IMG/VR virus record: IMGVR_UViG_3300025771_000233
Span: 1-21,560 of that record
DNA length: 21,560 nucleotides
DNA from: a virus
Strand: one strand, 5' to 3'
Made by a program: the position numbers and the translations under genes. Positions 12,659 through 21,409 of this stretch are shown in pieces. Positions within the stretch are counted from its first letter, which is position 1. The number at the start of each line of letters is the position of its first letter. The notes beneath the pieces are model-generated. The model searched no databases, was not told the DNA's origin, and saw nothing but the letters and a program-made list of their open reading frames with translations.

Positions 12659-12692
12659 AAAGAGGGGGCTTAATTGCCCCCTTTATTTTATC
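12657..12692. terminator. Bidirectional intrinsic terminator between convergent operons
   Basis: GGGGGC at 12664-12669 pairs with GCCCCC at 12676-12681 around a TTAATT loop, extended by A-T pairs. Downstream on the plus strand is TTTATTTTATC; on the minus strand the hairpin is followed by a T tract (complement of AAAAA before it). It lies between the last plus-strand gene and the stop of the minus-strand 1280-residue gene at 12688, so it can end transcription from both sides. The minus-strand stop lies at the foot of the hairpin. Confidence 0.88.
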
Positions 12693-15600
12693 TTATTCTT
12701 GCTGTCTTTGCATATTCTAACATCATATTTAGGTGGTCAAAGTTAGCCATGCTTGGCTTTTCATCTTCTCTACCCATCTGTGCTAATATAGATGGCAATG
12801 CTACAAATGCAGCATCTCTTTCGTCAGGCTTCAATCGTCTGAATTTTTGTTGTGCTGTTATGTATTTTGTTAGTTCTACATTCACGGCCTTTCCGTCTTT
12901 TGTCGTTAAGTCACTACGAACAGCATCCGTTTCTTTACCAGCAGTACTTGCTTCAGTTATGACTTTATCTATCTGTCCTTTGTATACGCCAATCTGGTCT
13001 TGAATAAAGGATATTTGTTGCAGACGAATATATGCGTCATCTGACACTTCATCACGTGCTTCTTGTGGACGCATTCTAGCACGTTCCAGATGAAAATCTG
13101 TGAACGACTTTGATTGTGCGGCTTCTGTTATTGAAGGCAGTACTTCCCTTAATACTTTTGTTTCATAGCGTTGGAATCCCGGAGATATGCTACGACTACG
13201 TATACGATAGTCAGCAAACCCCAAGTCATTAAGGAATTTTCCTGTTTTGCTTATATCCTTTTTAAGCGAGAGTCCTGTAAACACTTTAAGCAAAGGCATA
13301 ACACGTGCTTCTGAATCACCCTCTTGGAAAATAGTTTCACGAAGTGGTGCTTCACCCTCTTTTGATGGAGTGAACAAGTCAAGATAACCCTTTCGTTTAA
13401 ATGCTCCGGTAAATGAGCGTAAGAAAGGTTGACCTTCAAATGTAGGTTCGTTTCTACGGTCACGAAACTCTTCTGACCTAACACCAAAGGCACGTTGGGT
13501 TTCAATTAACTGATTAATCGGTGTCAAGAATGTAGAAGCATACTCGCCAAATGCCTCACCAAAATATTCTTGCGCACGTTCCCCAGCCATTGCATCTGAT
13601 TCAGAGAATATCTTTGATACATCTTGGAATACAGTGCCACCAACACCAGTACGAACATTAGTACCTATGAATGCTTCAGCACCTTCTTTGTAGCCTTGCT
13701 CACGCATCCACTTATTAAGTGTACCATTTCCTTTTCTTTTCATCCATTCAGCAATCCACAAGGATTGTCTAAGAATTGGTGATTGTGCCGATGTATCTAA
13801 CAGTGTGCCATCATCTTTACGTAACATTTTGTAGTCAGAAGGTGCGTCTTCACTGTTGCGATACATAATGGCTGCAGGTGCAATAACAGTCCAGCCAATA
13901 ATGTTACGAGAAATCATACGTCTATCAGCTTTAGTGAATGTTGTTTTGTTTCCTGTAACTGCATTTATAGTTCTCTTAATGATTGGAGCAAATGCACCTG
14001 CACTATATTCACCAGCCAGTTCCATACTATTAAACATGAAGCGTGGGAATGGCATAACGGTAGTCAAACCATTACGTGTAATAAAGGATGTTAACTCACG
14101 AAACACAGGAACTTCGGGTTGTTTTGCGTATGTTATGTCAAGAGATTTACCAACAGAGTCATCAACAAGTTCTTTAAAAGGACGTTTATTTGTGCCTATC
14201 AAATCAGGTGAATCGTTAAGCAAGTCTGGTAGTTTGCCCTGATTAACTACATCAATCAACTCAAGGTCGTATTCACGTTTAACAAGACGCTCTAATTCAG
14301 CAGTAAATGTACCACGCCTAATCAGATATTCTTGCCAACGGTTTGGTGCATTAATAATGTCAACACCTTTTTCTGCCAAGTCAAGTGACTTACCAAGTAA
14401 GGTGTCAGTACCAATGTCTGTAGAACGTCTGACTTCGTTAATCTGATTAAACATTCTATCATATTGATTAGCGAGTTCTGGACGGTCAAGGATATAATCC
14501 GTATACTCTTTCATTGCTGTATAGTTTTTAGGGTCAAAAGTATACTTTAAATGTCTAAAACTATCAGACCAATTCCCTTTAACATCAGCTAGACTTTTTA
14601 GTCCAGATGCTAGACCGTCTTTATCGTAGTTGTACAAGGCTGTATCAAACACATTCTGTAAGCCTTCGAGTGGCGCACGGACACCGGCAGACGATAAGTT
14701 ACGCGCAGCAGTAGCAAGCTGTGATACAAGTAATCCACGGCGAATGTTCTCTACTTTACGGAATGTCTTGAAGAAACCATTTTGCATGTCAAGCATCTGC
14801 GCTTCTTTAAGTGCGTCTAACTCACTCTTTGGCTTAACACGTTTACTTATCTGTGATAATTTGTTCAGTACTTTACCTGCTTCAGATGCAGAGCCTACCA
14901 TCATTGTGGCGTACTCTTCAAATGACAAGTCATATTTGTTTAAGAGTTCAAGTAATTCACCTTCAGGTATAACCTTTTCATCTACAGATAATTCAAAGAT
15001 AACATCTACAAGACGCTTGCCGCCTTTCGGGTCATACTTTACACCTTTACGTTCTATCAAATCTGCAGCAACAGCTACAAATGAATCCAGATTATCTGCC
15101 TTAATAATAGGTACAGTTAAACTGCCTGATTCATCTAGTAGAAACTCTGGAATGTCCCCCTTAACACCTGTAAGTTCTGTCTTTGGCTGCATCATATCGA
15201 GCAAGAAGTTTTGACTTACCTCTGGTGATGCGCCTCTTTCATTTAATAGGGCTGTTCCAGCTTCTCTGTACTTAACAGGGTCAAGTGTAAGCACCCCATC
15301 TTTATCCGCTGAAATAAGTTTACTCTCATCAATAACTTGATTAATATCTAACTTACTACGTGCGCCAAGTTCCTGCTCAAACTCCATAATCATACGTGAT
15401 TGTAGGTTAGTATGAGAGGCAGCAGCAGCTTTAGCCGCATCACGTTTTGCTTTCTTCGTAGTCTTTTCTGCTGCAATCAATGCGTCAGCTGTTTTGAACT
15501 TCTTGGTTGACTCTTTAACTGAATCACCAACATCTTTTAATTGTTTACTGGTAAGACCAGATAGATTTGTTACGGCACTAACAGGTAACATCATACCAAG

Positions 15601-16530
15601 ACTTTCGGAAAACTCTAGAAATGCACCTGTTTCTCGAGAGAAACTTTCCGCAGCAGTCTTCGGGGACATTTTAGCACCAGTCATAGTGCTTACAAATCCG
15701 TTGTAAAAATCAGGAGATTCTTTTTGCATGTTAGAAAAGAAAGTTTCTAACCCATCTGTATATGCAGCACTGGTATAATCAAATAGTTTGCCCATACCTA
15801 CAATAACATTAAATGCTTCTTCTCCTATACCAACTTTTGCAGAGTATTCAAAGAAAGATTTCATTGCACCATCAGGCATATTAGGAAATACGTCCTCTGC
15901 AAAATACTGTTCTTTAGTTTTTCCAGCGTCTTCAGCAGCAGCAGAAAATGTTCCATCCTGTTCAGCGTATTCTTTACGTGTTTTATATAAACGGCTGGTT
16001 GGGTCTTGTGCAAAAGTCGTTAAGCCTAATACTGGTTTATCGGTAGGTAGTGTTCCACCCATAAGTTCACGCATAAATGCCGTACCCTTTTCTGCGGGTG
16101 TTGGCATATCAGTTTCTGCATCGGCAGCTTCATAATCAATTTCTGTTTCTGTAGGCTGCGACATGCGGTCAATAATTCTCTGTTCGTCAGATGAATATAC
16201 CAATCCAAGAGGAAAGGCATCATATCCCTTCTCCTCAAACGCTGCTTGCTTTGCCTTAATTTGTTCCATTAACTGTGCTTCAGTTTTTTGAGAATCTGTA
16301 ATCGCGGAAACAGACTGTTTAGATAACGTAGAAGAATCTACAAGATTTCCATCAGCACGTGGTGGCACATCAACGTCTTCTACTACGTTAAACTTCGAGA
16401 GCGAGTCTCTAGCAGGACTAGGTTGTATTGCAGCTATAGGTTTAGAAACAATTGCACTAGGACCAGCTATATTGTTCTCTTGTTCTTCTTCTAATTCAAT
16501 TATGTTAAATTTTGAAAGAGAGTCTGCCAT
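12688..16530 (-). CDS. Very large virion protein (1280 aa), candidate DNA-ejection/internal core protein
   Basis: The last gene of the minus-strand operon. I recognise it only as the type of giant protein found in HMO-2011-like phages; no enzymatic motif, including lysozyme, is visible. Its size, helical character and place after other virion-type genes suggest an internal or ejected protein comparable in role to T7 gp16, which is inference. Features: DSLSKFN at residues 3-9 and again at 42-48; an Ala/Lys-rich segment from ESTKKFKTADALIAAEKTTK into KAKRDAAKAAAASH; a conserved-looking stretch LVSQLATAARNLSS; and one hydrophobic segment (IIGWTVIAPAAIMY) that may contact membrane. I place the start at 16530, where it overlaps the previous stop as TAATG; the ATG at 16554 lies inside the previous gene without a binding site. 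Confidence 0.85.
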   Translation of the reverse strand: MADSLSKFNIIELEEEQENNIAGPSAIVSKPIAAIQPSPARDSLSKFNVVEDVDVPPRADGNLVDSSTLSKQSVSAITDSQKTEAQLMEQIKAKQAAFEEKGYDAFPLGLVYSSDEQRIIDRMSQPTETEIDYEAADAETDMPTPAEKGTAFMRELMGGTLPTDKPVLGLTTFAQDPTSRLYKTRKEYAEQDGTFSAAAEDAGKTKEQYFAEDVFPNMPDGAMKSFFEYSAKVGIGEEAFNVIVGMGKLFDYTSAAYTDGLETFFSNMQKESPDFYNGFVSTMTGAKMSPKTAAESFSRETGAFLEFSESLGMMLPVSAVTNLSGLTSKQLKDVGDSVKESTKKFKTADALIAAEKTTKKAKRDAAKAAAASHTNLQSRMIMEFEQELGARSKLDINQVIDESKLISADKDGVLTLDPVKYREAGTALLNERGASPEVSQNFLLDMMQPKTELTGVKGDIPEFLLDESGSLTVPIIKADNLDSFVAVAADLIERKGVKYDPKGGKRLVDVIFELSVDEKVIPEGELLELLNKYDLSFEEYATMMVGSASEAGKVLNKLSQISKRVKPKSELDALKEAQMLDMQNGFFKTFRKVENIRRGLLVSQLATAARNLSSAGVRAPLEGLQNVFDTALYNYDKDGLASGLKSLADVKGNWSDSFRHLKYTFDPKNYTAMKEYTDYILDRPELANQYDRMFNQINEVRRSTDIGTDTLLGKSLDLAEKGVDIINAPNRWQEYLIRRGTFTAELERLVKREYDLELIDVVNQGKLPDLLNDSPDLIGTNKRPFKELVDDSVGKSLDITYAKQPEVPVFRELTSFITRNGLTTVMPFPRFMFNSMELAGEYSAGAFAPIIKRTINAVTGNKTTFTKADRRMISRNIIGWTVIAPAAIMYRNSEDAPSDYKMLRKDDGTLLDTSAQSPILRQSLWIAEWMKRKGNGTLNKWMREQGYKEGAEAFIGTNVRTGVGGTVFQDVSKIFSESDAMAGERAQEYFGEAFGEYASTFLTPINQLIETQRAFGVRSEEFRDRRNEPTFEGQPFLRSFTGAFKRKGYLDLFTPSKEGEAPLRETIFQEGDSEARVMPLLKVFTGLSLKKDISKTGKFLNDLGFADYRIRSRSISPGFQRYETKVLREVLPSITEAAQSKSFTDFHLERARMRPQEARDEVSDDAYIRLQQISFIQDQIGVYKGQIDKVITEASTAGKETDAVRSDLTTKDGKAVNVELTKYITAQQKFRRLKPDERDAAFVALPSILAQMGREDEKPSMANFDHLNMMLEYAKTARIR
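16387..16407 (-). repeat. DSLSKFN peptide motif, copy 2 (residues 42-48)
   Basis: Encodes the same seven residues as 16504-16524, followed by Val-Val-Glu where copy 1 has Ile-Ile-Glu. Four of the seven codons differ from copy 1 at synonymous third positions. Confidence 0.85.
16504..16524 (-). repeat. DSLSKFN peptide motif, copy 1 (residues 3-9)
   Basis: Encodes DSLSKFN at the extreme N-terminus of the 1280-residue protein, followed by an acidic run (ELEEEQE). Copy 2 lies 39 residues further on and is also followed by an acidic run (EDVDV). Confidence 0.85.
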
Positions 16531-18077
16531 TAGTACCAGTTCTTTCCGTCCCATATAGCAACGGCAGTACTTCCGTTACTGTCTGTATATCTAACAATGT
16601 CGCCCATATTCAATTGATTATTATTGGCTGCTTGTTCTGCGTCTGCTTTTGAGTTGAATGTTTTATTCATATCGGGATATTTAGTTTTATTAAATTGATT
16701 TAAGTAATCTCTATAGTAGGTAATGTGCTTACCCTTAAATGAATCTACAGCACTAGAAAAGTAATTTGAATCTTTATATGTTTTGCTTTTTAGTTTTTTG
16801 TCCAAATCAGATTGGATAATATCCATATATTGTAGTCTTTGTAGATACTGTGTTACTCTTTCCTCTCCAGTTCCAAATTTAAAATCTAATTGTTCTTCAA
16901 AGGTTTTAACAAATTCTAAACCAGACTGCGAAAACAAACTACGTTCTATTGTTGATACATAATCTAAAGCAGCTTTAGGTGTATTAAATACATCAGTAGT
17001 CTTTGTAGTAGTTCCTGTTTTTGTTTGAACATCATTTTTTCTAGCATATAAAATGTCAAGTTTCTTTTGAAAATTATCTACTACTGATGGGTCAGCGTTA
17101 CCTAGCATTTCTTTTGCCAGTTCAACATTTGTATTTTCTATCATTATGTCAATAGTTTCAGTCTTTTTATCTTTCTCTGGCTCCCGCTTTGCTTTTGATT
17201 CCAGATAAACTTTTTCTTCAACCTCCAAGGCCGCTAATTTAGATTGATTAGTAGCTGGGTCTTTACTCAATTCGTATCTCTCATTAGCAATTGCGTCAAG
17301 ACGTTTATCAATATCAAATTCAGTGTCTTCTTTACCAATGTTACCGTATGCCGTTACGTAGCCTTCATACACGGAAATCTTTGCTTCATCAGGGGCTTCT
17401 TTATTCTTCTCCTCAAGAATCTGTCCGGTATAATATGTTTGTGCCTCTTTTGGTGTATCAAATAGTAGTTCATCTTTTTTACCAAGCGCACTACGCATTG
17501 CTGTGTAATCTACAGATAATTGACCAAGTGGGGGTAAGTCAGTTTCAACGCGACTATCTCCTAATACACCAGCTTTTGCTTCAAACTCTTCTAATAAGGT
17601 AGTTGGGTCTGACACGAACAATCCACCAAGACCATCAGCTTGTCTGCCTTTAAGATATTGACGAGCAATGGTTGGGTCATAGGTTGCTTTAGGACCAAAC
17701 AATGATAGAAACTCCGCATCATCAGTGTCTGCAAATTCTTCTGAATTTTTAACACTATAAAATGTAGAAAAGTCTGCGTCTTTATTTTTCTCGAGTAGTT
17801 TATTATACTGGTTTAATGTATTTGTAACAGCAGTAGAACCACCACTAGCAATCTGAAAACGTGTAGGTGTATTTAGTCCAGTCATAGCCAGTGCAGCCAT
17901 GCCCTCTCTAATTGCTTTGGCATCAGCCTCTGTTTCTTTTTTCTTCTGCAGATATACTTGTGTACCCAAGTCAAGTGCCTTGTCAGTCAGGAGATTGACA
18001 CGCTCTTCTTGGTCTTTAACTCTTTCGGCAATAGTCTGCGACATACCACCTAGAAATGCACCAAAATTAAATCCCAT
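16530..18077 (-). CDS. Virion-associated protein of unknown function (515 aa), largely helical
   Basis: A 515-residue protein lacking any motif I recognise. It begins MGFNFGAFLGGMSQTIAERV and continues into a charged helix with many Lys, Glu and Gln to about residue 60. The middle is Lys/Glu rich with likely coiled coil (e.g. AALEVEEKVYLESKAKREPE around 300). The final 45 residues (SKADAEQAANNNQLNMGDIV, then a Trp-ending hairpin VAIWDGKNWY) look like a small separate beta domain of a kind seen at the ends of phage structural proteins. Its start overlaps the stop of the 183-residue gene (TAATG) with AAGGAG upstream, and its own stop overlaps the start of the 1280-residue gene in the same way. 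Such coupling suggests fixed ratios in one complex, perhaps an internal core or ejection apparatus. Confidence 0.82.
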   Translation of the reverse strand: MGFNFGAFLGGMSQTIAERVKDQEERVNLLTDKALDLGTQVYLQKKKETEADAKAIREGMAALAMTGLNTPTRFQIASGGSTAVTNTLNQYNKLLEKNKDADFSTFYSVKNSEEFADTDDAEFLSLFGPKATYDPTIARQYLKGRQADGLGGLFVSDPTTLLEEFEAKAGVLGDSRVETDLPPLGQLSVDYTAMRSALGKKDELLFDTPKEAQTYYTGQILEEKNKEAPDEAKISVYEGYVTAYGNIGKEDTEFDIDKRLDAIANERYELSKDPATNQSKLAALEVEEKVYLESKAKREPEKDKKTETIDIMIENTNVELAKEMLGNADPSVVDNFQKKLDILYARKNDVQTKTGTTTKTTDVFNTPKAALDYVSTIERSLFSQSGLEFVKTFEEQLDFKFGTGEERVTQYLQRLQYMDIIQSDLDKKLKSKTYKDSNYFSSAVDSFKGKHITYYRDYLNQFNKTKYPDMNKTFNSKADAEQAANNNQLNMGDIVRYTDSNGSTAVAIWDGKNWY

Positions 18078-18628
18078 TATGCTCTCCTTGCCATCAACCC
18101 AGTAGGCTCTTCAGGTGGCAACTCCTGCTGTTCAGGCATTGCCTCTGCTTCAACATCAGGTGCTTGTTGCTCTTGTACCAAATCTTCTGGCTCCATTCCC
18201 ATAGCTTCAAGTTCTTTGTCAATCTTACGCTTAACTTTTGCAATGGTTGTTTCACTATATCCTTTGTCACCAAGTCTGTTATCTTCTGTACCAATAGTGT
18301 AGTCAACACCAGCTTGTTCTGCAAGATATGCCATCATTTCAATAAGCACAGGCATTACAAGAATACCTACGTCAATAGTATGGTAGCCCTGCATGACACC
18401 GCCAACCTGCATAGCGTTGGCAATCGTAGTCAGAGGCACACCCATTTCCATTGTGTCCAATAACTGTGGTGCAATCTGTGGGTCAACCAAACGAGGAATA
18501 TAATATTCAAGTGCATCCTCTACAGTTTCATACTGCGGGGGCTGTTGCCACGGACGATTACCCAACTCTGCTGTTAATGATTGCCCCGGAATAGGTCCAT
18601 CCAGAAACGGTGCTTTTTCTTCAGCCAT
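18077..18628 (-). CDS. Conserved marine-phage virion-type protein (183 aa)
   Basis: A 183-residue protein starting MAEEKAPFLDGPIPGQSLTA. The APF-DGPIPGQSLT and RPWQQPP pattern is one I recall from marine cyanophage and pelagiphage proteins of unknown function located among virion genes. Residues 70-110 are hydrophobic (TTIANAMQVGGVMQGYH, then VGILVMPVLIEMMAYLAEQA) and may form a membrane-active or buried helix pair; the last 35 residues are rich in Glu, Pro and Gln and probably disordered. The start overlaps the 69-residue gene by 8 bases and is preceded by GAGAGG. The stop overlaps the next start (TAATG). A role in virion assembly is inferred from context only. Confidence 0.82.
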   Translation of the reverse strand: MAEEKAPFLDGPIPGQSLTAELGNRPWQQPPQYETVEDALEYYIPRLVDPQIAPQLLDTMEMGVPLTTIANAMQVGGVMQGYHTIDVGILVMPVLIEMMAYLAEQAGVDYTIGTEDNRLGDKGYSETTIAKVKRKIDKELEAMGMEPEDLVQEQQAPDVEAEAMPEQQELPPEEPTGLMARRA

Positions 18629-18830
18629 TCTTTAGTGCCTCTCTCTTTGCACGAATTTGTGCTACATATTTAGCAACACGAGTACGTTCATCATCTACTT
18701 CTGTTTTAGCCTTTTGCGGCGTAGGACGTGTACGAGATAACAAACCACTCATAGGTGTTTCGTTTTCTTTAGGGGTTGACGTGTCGGGAATACGTAAATT
18801 AGTATATGCTTTATATGCTGTATCAAACAT
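18621..18830 (-). CDS. Small basic protein (69 aa) in the virion operon
   Basis: A 69-residue protein, MFDTAYKAYTNLRIPDTSTP followed by a basic helix (RTRVAKYVAQIRAKREALKNG). No family recognised. The AAGG of its ribosome binding site overlaps the stop of the 855-residue gene, eight bases before the ATG, and its own end overlaps the 183-residue gene, so it is embedded in the coupled chain. The charged C-terminal helix could bind nucleic acid or a larger partner; this is inference. The opposite-strand frame here is a shadow. Confidence 0.75.
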   Translation of the reverse strand: MFDTAYKAYTNLRIPDTSTPKENETPMSGLLSRTRPTPQKAKTEVDDERTRVAKYVAQIRAKREALKNG

Positions 18831-18841
18831 TTTTTATATCC

Positions 18842-21409
18842 TTAAAATCCAAACAACTTACCTATCATACTGCTCGATGATGCAGTCAAGAATGTACCAA
18901 TCAAACTACCAAATCCGGCAGAAGAAGCATAGTCATTCTTCATGTCTTGAATATTAGCACTACTATCAGCACGAAGCTGTTCAATAGCTAGATTCACGAT
19001 ACGACTACGTTCATTCTCTGCAGATGTCCATGCCCACTCCATACTGTCACCATAGTATTGCCACAAATTATTATAGGCTTGCTGTGATACACCTAGTACT
19101 GCACTAGCATTAAGTTCGTTAGCACGATTGACTGTTGCATTGTTTACTGTAGCTACTTGTCTGCGCCATTGTGCATTGCTTTGGTCAATCACAAGTCTAT
19201 TGGTAGCATTGAACTGGTCACGCTGGTTATTTAGTTCAGCGTTAAAGCGTTCAACTACGTTACGTTGACCTGCGTTATATTGCGACTGTGCGTTTGCTTG
19301 TGTCGCATTAAACTGTGATACATTGTTAGCAAGGGAAGCGAAGAACTGGTCAACCTGATTCTGTGAAGTGGCATTGAACTGCCGTGCTGCGTTGACCGCT
19401 GACTGGTCATTAAATAGTGCCTGTACTCTTTGCTGGGCATTAAACAATTCAGTCTGCTGCTGATTAGATAAATTAGCCATATCCATCTGCATGAAGTTCT
19501 GCGCATTCATAACTGCAGCTTGTTGACGATTGGACAGGTTAGCCATGTCCATTTGCGATAAGGCAGCAGCCTCTGCCATTACAACTCCTTGCCTATTAGA
19601 TAGATTAGCAAGGTTCATGCTATTAGCAATTCGACTGTTTTCCAAAGCAACCTGCTGTTCAGCAGTGAAGTTCATATTGGCAATGTCACCAATACGTGCT
19701 GCGTTAGCTACACGTGATTGGAACGCTTGGTCAAATTCCTGACCCATAAACTGCGCACGTTGCTGTGCAGCAAGCATAGAACGTTGTTGTCTGTTTGACA
19801 AGTTCTGCTGTTCAAACTGTGCAAACACACTTGCGTCTGCTTGTGCTACCGGCAATGCACTTTCTAATGCAGCTTGCACCATTGCCTGACCAGCAAGGCT
19901 AGATGCACCTAGCCCACGTGCAGCCATCGCGGATGTTACATTACGTAATGCACCTGCAGCCCACGGTGGTGTTTGCCCACCTTGAAACTGCGTCATCAAG
20001 TTTTGCAGCTGACCTTGTACAGTAGCTTGCTGTGATGGTGTAGCTTGTGCTGCCTGCACCTGTTCAGTAAACTGTGCAGCAGTCTGTGCATTAGCTGCAC
20101 CACTAATAAGTTCACCCTGCTGTATCTGACGCTGTGTCGGATTATTCATCAGGATAGCATTACCCTGTGCGGCATTGACATTGCCTACAGATGTAGCTGT
20201 TTGCTGGGCCGCTAGAACCTCTGCCTGCGGGTCTACACTGCCTTGTGCTGCCTGTGTAGCATTGATAGCTGTATTGACCGCTGGTGCGGCTGTAGCAGCC
20301 TGCATAACGTTAGCTTCACTTTCCTGTGGACCCTGTGCAAATGTTGTTGTAGCCATTGCTGTAGGCGTTGCAACAGCACCGCTAACCTGTCCACTGGTAG
20401 ATGGAATCATCTGACCTGCTTCAGTATTTATACCTTGCGCAACTACGGTCGCACCTTCAGGCAGTCCGGGTGACTGCATCATTTGTGCAGATACATCACC
20501 AATTGTAGGGGCAGTCATTTCTGTAAGCACATTGCCTTCAGCATCTGTGACTGGTTTCATATAGTTTGGATTAGGTGTAGTGCCATCAGCTAGAAACTGA
20601 TTAGTATCCATCTTTGGCTTTTCTACTTGCTTAAACTCTTGTTTTGGTACATATGCCTGTTGCAATGGTTGATTAGGTGGAGGTGGTGGGCTAGTTGTTT
20701 CTCCTACTGCACGTGTAGCTGAATTATAAGTAATACCGTTTATTGTTACAGGCTGTCCTAATCCGGGACTGGGTAGTGGCTCCGCTATATTTTCTCCTCT
20801 AGCCAGTGTTACTGGGGCAAGATTATCTTCTTCACCAACAGCTTGTGTTGTTGCATTGAATAGTGGCCCATCACCGGGTTGCTCACCTAAAGCTTTGGTT
20901 ACAGCAAGATGCAGATTACCATCTTCACCTAAAGCTCTTGTCAGGTACTTTTGTGGAGGATTTGGGTTAGGGTCATCCTCACCTACAGCCATTGTTTTAG
21001 CTAGAAACTTCCCATCTGGTAGTTCCGGCAACTGCTGACCATCTTCCTCACCAAAAGCCGCTGTTGTTTGCTTTGCAATTTGTCCAAACTGTGGACTGTT
21101 AGCTGCTACTTGAGTAACAGCACCTAATGCTGCTTGCGTTAATGGGTTACCTATAATCCCGCCAGCTTGTGTAGTTGCTGTACCTGTAAGGGGATTTATT
21201 CCACCTGCCGCTACACCACCTTCACGCATCTTACGTACTGCACCACCTTTAGCCATTTGCATAGCTTGATTAGTATAGTTCTGCATTTGCTGTTGACGCA
21301 TAGGGTCTTGTGCTATGTAATCTTGAAAACCCTGCATGTTTCCTTGATAGCCCATAGACCGTGCTATCTTTTCCATTCCACTAGGTTTAAATGCTTTGAA
21401 CATTGCCAT
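18842..21409 (-). CDS. Repeat-rich virion-type protein (855 aa) with hendecad repeats
   Basis: An 855-residue Gln/Ala/Asn-rich protein. In order: a short helical start (residues 1-60); seven A-x-G-E repeats (117-239) separated by Pro/Asp/Asn-rich linkers; a Thr/Ala/Gln-rich, probably disordered region (270-475); a compact block PPWAAGALRN to MAARGLGASSLAGQAMVQAA (481-515) that I recall from marine-phage structural proteins; then an 11-residue Asn-phased repeat from 536 to 777; and a tail with a hydrophobic end (FGSLIGTFLTAS). No enzymatic motif is seen. A long helical rod or fibre, or an ejection conduit, would fit, but no receptor-binding domain is visible. AGGA lies eight bases before ATG 21409. 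An ATP-grasp gene ends 10 bases upstream. Confidence 0.85.
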   Translation of the reverse strand: MAMFKAFKPSGMEKIARSMGYQGNMQGFQDYIAQDPMRQQQMQNYTNQAMQMAKGGAVRKMREGGVAAGGINPLTGTATTQAGGIIGNPLTQAALGAVTQVAANSPQFGQIAKQTTAAFGEEDGQQLPELPDGKFLAKTMAVGEDDPNPNPPQKYLTRALGEDGNLHLAVTKALGEQPGDGPLFNATTQAVGEEDNLAPVTLARGENIAEPLPSPGLGQPVTINGITYNSATRAVGETTSPPPPPNQPLQQAYVPKQEFKQVEKPKMDTNQFLADGTTPNPNYMKPVTDAEGNVLTEMTAPTIGDVSAQMMQSPGLPEGATVVAQGINTEAGQMIPSTSGQVSGAVATPTAMATTTFAQGPQESEANVMQAATAAPAVNTAINATQAAQGSVDPQAEVLAAQQTATSVGNVNAAQGNAILMNNPTQRQIQQGELISGAANAQTAAQFTEQVQAAQATPSQQATVQGQLQNLMTQFQGGQTPPWAAGALRNVTSAMAARGLGASSLAGQAMVQAALESALPVAQADASVFAQFEQQNLSNRQQRSMLAAQQRAQFMGQEFDQAFQSRVANAARIGDIANMNFTAEQQVALENSRIANSMNLANLSNRQGVVMAEAAALSQMDMANLSNRQQAAVMNAQNFMQMDMANLSNQQQTELFNAQQRVQALFNDQSAVNAARQFNATSQNQVDQFFASLANNVSQFNATQANAQSQYNAGQRNVVERFNAELNNQRDQFNATNRLVIDQSNAQWRRQVATVNNATVNRANELNASAVLGVSQQAYNNLWQYYGDSMEWAWTSAENERSRIVNLAIEQLRADSSANIQDMKNDYASSAGFGSLIGTFLTASSSSMIGKLFGF
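19079..19804 (-). repeat. 33-bp-period coding repeat (11-residue units, about 22 copies)
   Basis: Encodes residues 536-777. The units fall in one unbroken 11-residue register; Asn occupies the first position in 17 of 22 units (starts at 536, 569, 580, 591, 602, 624, 635, 646, 657, 679, 701, 712, 723, 734, 745, 756, 767). Early units pair up as 22-residue blocks containing NLSNRQQ; later ones read as F-N-A-T plus polar residues ending in Gln. DNA identity between units is modest. Confidence 0.85.
20693..21061 (-). repeat. Seven A-x-G-E peptide repeats
   Basis: Residues 117-239 contain AAFGEED, MAVGEDD, RALGEDG, KALGEQP, QAVGEED, LARGENI and RAVGETT, 13-31 residues apart, usually with an aromatic or Leu plus Thr/Ala four to seven residues before (e.g. 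YNSATRAVGE, LFNATTQAVGE). Spacing is irregular, so these look like repeated linear motifs, not a folded tandem domain. Confidence 0.8.

Follow-up and report, generated by a model that had tools for sequence, protein, structure and literature searches.

The DNA pilot protein H of phiX174 (PDB 4JPP) forms a helical DNA-conducting tube composed of hendecads and heptads, with a length of 17 nm for 121 residues and with N, Q or R at 18 of 23 lumen positions (PMC7354561). The SU10 proteins gp20–24 are present in the virion and are lost on genome release (PMC9509320). The ejection-gene operons of T7 and the Schitoviridae phage DEV provide a further point of reference, and the comparison with them was drawn from PMC10925440.

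The locus compared with these systems lies in a stretch of viral DNA of 21,560 nt, all of which is referred to here as the window (IMG/VR record IMGVR_UViG_3300025771_000233, positions 1–21,560). The window is from an HMO-2011-type podovirus; its DNA polymerase has 80 % identity to that of Puniceispirillum phage HMO-2011 and includes the DnaJ-type insert, and a class II ribonucleotide reductase and a phage integrase are also encoded. Phages of this type are very common in the ocean and include some of its most abundant viruses. The protein of interest, of 855 residues (18842–21409, minus strand), is the counterpart of HMO-2011 gp25, the family of which is labelled 'hypothetical' in nearly all annotated records. 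No virion proteomics covering the HMO-2011-type group or the 855-residue protein was found in the literature.

The gp25 family and its gene neighbourhood

Homologues of the 855-residue protein were found in roseophages (CRP) and pelagiphages (HTVC), with more distant homologues in podoviruses of Sinorhizobium, Rhizobium, Vibrio, Aeromonas and Pseudoalteromonas. The window protein has the homologous flanking domains and the 11-phase array of the HMO-2011 gp25 family. HMO-2011 gp25 and the counterparts in CRP, HTVC, phiM6, MQM1, CHOED and Slicky01 phages share family, register and gene order with it but differ in the number of array units and in the N-terminal region. One homologue (L096:4378-6969) is labelled 'huntingtin', evidently a naming artefact from its Gln/Asn-rich sequence. 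Searches of Pfam, PHROGs and NCBIfam with the window protein and the aligned homologues returned no real family, searches of the PDB by sequence and by profile returned no match to the 855-residue protein, phiX174 H included, and a scan of bacterial and archaeal genomes, which reaches close relatives only, returned no relatives.

The array gene leads a conserved block with which the structural operon ends, composed of genes for a 183-residue protein (18077–18628), a mostly helical 515-residue protein (16530–18077) and a 1288-residue protein (12688–16554), the last gene of the structural block, all on the minus strand. A small ORF of 69 residues (18621–18830, minus strand) lies between the 855- and 183-residue genes, and several relatives also have a small ORF there. 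The 183-residue gene was located downstream of the array gene, on the matching strand, in all 182 loci where both were found, and is followed in relatives by a gene of about 400–900 residues and then one of about 800–1600 residues, which closes the structural operon. The Slicky01 and HTVC104P proteins at the position of the 1288-residue protein match PHROG virion structural proteins; comparison of the predicted model of the 515-residue neighbour matched nothing specific. Genes upstream of the homologue are annotated as tail fibre in HMO-2011 and the CRP phages. In HTVC033P (L089:163-2277), two 2OG-Fe(II) oxygenases and a putative ferrochelatase are annotated just upstream, within the structural region, and in HTVC115P (L088:4006-4455) a gene annotated as a toxin-activating lysine-acyltransferase lies directly downstream of the homologue.

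The N-terminal part of the protein (residues 1–466; 20012–21409, minus strand) is variable, rich in A, Q, G, T and P, and of unconstrained length among homologues, the whole proteins ranging from 390 to 1660 residues. An A[LVRF]GE motif, mostly preceded by T-x, recurs seven times in imperfect form within residues ~115–240 (20690–21067, minus strand). These are possibly linker repeats or protease sites; so many copies were not seen in the reference homologues. At the other end, the C-terminal tail (18842–18979, minus strand) contains a hydrophobic and Gly-Ser stretch. In the CRP-3, CRP-212, CRP-235 and CRP-738 homologues its place is taken by a Peptidase_S74-type domain (Pfam), which is absent from most homologues. 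Outside the family, the nearest relatives of these S74-type tails are mainly annotated as DNA injection or ejection proteins, and one as a tail spike/chaperone. The CRP-235 homologue (L098:1411-3945) has a LysM domain near the N terminus in addition to its S74-type C-terminal domain. A match of the CRP-212 homologue to the PHROG 4287 'DNA ejection protein' was rejected as due to the S74-type tail alone, since it disappears once the tail is removed; a PHROG 4287 profile match over the protein body was absent, and the window protein had no match at all.

An 11-residue array held in phase

The sequence-only reading had described a single unbroken 11-residue register over residues 536–777 (19079–19804, minus strand; 22 units), and this was confirmed by register count and autocorrelation. 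Its count of Asn at position 1 in 17 of the 22 units was also reproduced, the remaining five having A, E, E, D and F. Residue-identity autocorrelation over lags 2–44 was raised only at 11, 22, 33 and 44 (z 6.6, 9.8, 6.5 and 6.7, respectively), with the strongest signal at lag 22 because the unit styles alternate (NLSNRQQ... then NAQ...). The hypergeometric P for the Asn phasing was 9e-12, the best value from 100 composition-preserving shuffles over all periods 3–30 being 1.2e-5. Tandem Repeats Finder detected no repeat in the DNA of the array region, which indicates an old repeat at the protein level.

The composition of the array is rich in A, Q, N and L with little Gly, and Pro is not among the listed residues; in the window it has low charge and zero Lys. 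The pattern derived from 2649 distinct units was N(1) A/L(2) S/Q(3) N/A/Q(4) x(5) Q/N(6) Q(7) A/V/M/I(8) x(9) L/Q(10) F/A(11). The register extends beyond the Asn-phased units in both directions. The N-terminal flanking domain (residues 467–535; 19805–20011, minus strand), with the motif QL..PxWAxGA..RGLxxSSxA...PIAxxDA, is in phase from PxW onward as five further units lacking the Asn, PxW being located 55 residues ahead of residue 536 with identical spacing in 163 of 185 homologues. The C-terminal flanking domain (residues 745–810; 18980–19177, minus strand) is a predicted helix with the motif NxxWRR ... WxxxxDxxxWxxxSAEN; it overlaps the array in the last three units, and in the alignment the register continues into its W/ENxxR block.

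To compare phase between homologues gathered from IMG/VR and phage records, the flanking domains were located by profile HMMs and the distance between them was measured. Of 197 distinct homologues, 196 had a distance divisible by 11, with 17 in-phase lengths of 99, 121, 132, 143, 154, 165, 198, 209, 264, 297, 319, 407, 429, 517, 539, 649 and 759 residues, so that the array spans 9–69 units. The only one of the 18 distinct lengths that is not divisible by 11 was the 298 residues of L111 (L111:3062-5107), in which one residue is inserted just ahead of the C-terminal flanking domain. As a control, the remaining parts of these proteins were measured: the N-terminal part had 136 distinct lengths and the C-terminal tail 44, spread across all residues modulo 11. 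The homologues are related and their counts are not independent, so the argument rests on there being 17 different lengths in phase. The distance between the flanks gives a clean reading, whereas gaps in pairwise alignments give a noisy one, since an aligner may break a gap into pieces. Of all such gaps, 33 % were divisible by 11, and of those of at least 5 residues, 44 %.

Asn dominates one and the same phase in every array length class, and within the 209-residue class no register position is more strongly conserved than Asn(1) (0.24 bits). Indels of lengths other than multiples of 11 had been named in advance as a finding that would count against the repeat, and what was found among the homologues is a phase held in all but L111. 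The conservation of the phase is well supported, and the sequence comparison supports the view that it is maintained by selection on the register.

Two series of array lengths, 209/319/429/539/649/759 and 297/407/517, proceed in steps of 110 residues, or ten hendecads. In L179 and L181 (69 units), blocks of 110 residues (330 nt) are up to 98 % identical over 44 residues and 91 % over 150 nt, and have therefore been duplicated recently, giving a natural series of rod lengths. For most 39-unit arrays the 110-residue lag gives ~50–60 % identity at best, which corresponds to an older duplication. With 9–69 units occurring naturally, array length can be compared with the cell envelope and with the head to see whether it follows either.

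Predicted helix and hydrophobic stripes

An AlphaFold2 monomer model of residues 464–855, based on 64 sequences, contained helix only and no strand, in agreement with the earlier helical reading. The longest helix was 106 residues; confidence was moderate to low (pLDDT 65, pTM 0.22), and the first half of the array contained breaks. If fully helical, the array would be a rod of ~36 nm, close to the ~35 nm estimated beforehand. Foldseek with the array model gave no PDB match at E≤0.001, and in the viral library the sole significant matches look like members of the gp25 family. The best VIA-align result was to the helical lid of DnaK (Z 4.9); an N4 tail chain (9lc0_K, Z 4.1) was disregarded, its rmsd being 65.

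On an 11/3 helical wheel, the array has two opposite hydrophobic stripes, at positions 2/6/10 and 11/4/8, with Asn(1) on a polar face between them. Both polar faces are rich in Asn/Gln (position 1 or 7, with 3), and charge is mainly at positions 5 and 9. The single-face moment (first harmonic) accounted for 0–2 % of the hydrophobic variance and the two-face component (second harmonic) for 40–45 %; on permuting the 11 position values, both components were as extreme with a joint P of 0.02, which is only moderately unlikely by chance. Of the features of a hendecad coiled coil, the unbroken 11-phase is present and the single seam (positions a, d, e and h) is absent. The presence of two stripes and no single face therefore counts against a classical coiled coil that has one core with layers of Asn in it. 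The sequence-only reading had proposed a hendecad coiled coil with Asn layers; its helical hendecad array stands, on the basis of the AlphaFold2 model and the composition, but the wheel does not place Asn in a conventional core layer. The two-stripe pattern fits helices that have a partner on either side, an arrangement seen in helical barrels or sheets. A ladder of Asn residues and a spectral peak at 164 degrees were the grounds for considering beta structure. It was rejected, as the AlphaFold2 model is free of strands and the peak also coincides with the second harmonic of 98 degrees.

Proposed function and known delivery systems

The reading that we favour, with a probability of roughly 45 %, is that the 855-residue protein is a DNA-ejection protein of HMO-2011-type podoviruses, the Asn/Gln hendecads of which build a helical rod or tube. 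The rod is well supported and the membership of an ejection module is moderately supported; an oligomeric tube and contact with DNA we infer. In such a protein, the Asn/Gln-rich hendecads would form one long, nearly straight helix of 11 residues per three turns, with hydrophobic stripes running along two opposite sides. Several copies could align side by side as a hollow rod or tube used during DNA delivery, and Asn/Gln side chains would then line its lumen, in a manner similar to the H tube of phiX174. The array changes length in whole 11-residue units only, and the reason proposed is that a one-residue shift would turn both stripes away from their partners' register.

Evidence for this reading comes from the phase conservation, the helix prediction, the two stripes, the parallel with phiX174 H, the operon layout, the S74-type tails of the CRP homologues and the LysM domain of CRP-235. 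Against it are the low AlphaFold2 confidence, the joint P of 0.02, the unclear stripes in the H hendecads, and an array and flanks without detectable homology to any ejection protein. The main difficulty is the nearly 8-fold spread in array length (15–114 nm if straight), which is odd for a tube matching the periplasm. In a bolder version, which is rather doubtful, the family would be a novel type of DNA conduit for dsDNA phages: an alpha-helical barrel lined with Asn/Gln, 9–69 hendecads long, convergent with the phiX174 H tube and evolving in length by whole units and 110-residue blocks. The phase-locked helical array of adjustable length is a concrete candidate for the conduit or internal rod of these viruses.

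The S74-type tails also bear on a different structure, the shaft of a trimeric tail fibre or tail needle, in which the array would be a three-stranded hendecad coiled coil and the tail a trimer-forming intramolecular chaperone that is later cleaved off. A shaft is consistent with the C-terminal Pfam domain Peptidase_S74 ('chaperone of endosialidase') of four homologues, with the tail-fibre annotation of the upstream neighbours and with the variable N-terminal region. It is nonetheless unlikely: the array has no single hydrophobic seam, most homologues lack S74, the S74-type tails are closer to annotated injection or ejection proteins than to fibres, and the conserved part is the N-terminal flanking domain, unlike a receptor-binding fibre. 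The protein could alternatively be an internal head rod or assembly protein, analogous to a core or scaffold, that organizes portal, core and DNA in assembly and is not a conduit. The location in a structural block beside putative ejection genes, the spacer-like and strongly variable array length grown by 110-residue duplications, and the low charge and absence of Lys in the window array would suit this role; it appears improbable given that the structural-operon neighbours and the resemblance of the S74-type tails point to ejection and that no scaffold-specific feature was found.

Alpha-synuclein and perilipin have 11-residue repeats that form 11/3 amphipathic helices with one hydrophobic face. 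A helix of this kind, resting along the surface of a membrane while the DNA enters, would share the 11-residue pitch and the interspersion of hydrophobic with uncharged polar residues, but the single-face component of 0–2 % disfavours it and makes it very unlikely here. A functionless low-complexity expansion, acting as a disordered Asn/Gln-rich linker, would agree with the Asn/Gln/Ala-rich composition and with length change by duplication. Since the phase is kept while the flanking parts vary freely, and Asn(1) is highly conserved, selection on the register is indicated and such an expansion is scarcely credible.

For the ejection reading, the closest comparisons by gene layout are with SU10, T7 and DEV. 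The SU10 gp20–24 block, likewise last in its structural operon, resembles the array-gene block, the neighbour genes here being only putative ejection genes. SU10 gp21 and gp22 fall in PHROG 4287, as does the Salmonella 7-11 gp020 'DNA ejection/injection protein', the S74-type tail of which resembles those of the CRP homologues but which is without an Asn hendecad array. Outside the S74-type tail there is no profile homology between these proteins and the array family, and hhalign against the SU10, 7-11 and PVA1 ejection-block proteins gave <1 % probability. For T7, the protein sizes of gp14, gp15 and gp16 were used in comparing gene order. The order of small, middle and very large genes in T7 (gp14–gp15–gp16) and DEV (gp73–gp72–gp71) resembles the 183–515–1288 block, but these ejection proteins have no detectable sequence or fold match to the window neighbours, and no hendecad array is described for them in these reports (PMC8954989, PMC10925440).

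The phiX174 protein H differs in being from a microvirus with ssDNA, in having mostly heptads after three hendecads and in being much shorter, with no sequence homology detected to the array protein and no variable unit number described. It is similar in being helical, with 11-residue repeats containing one amide residue per repeat. Its heptad part, from the sequence printed in PMC7354561, has a first harmonic of 1 % and a second of 42 %, resembling the two-stripe pattern of the window array; for its three hendecads alone the pattern is not clear. Membership in the H family is not claimed, and the analogy suggests that the array protein may work like the H tube. If true, this would add to phiX174 H a second DNA-delivery protein with amide-rich hendecads, apparently of independent origin.
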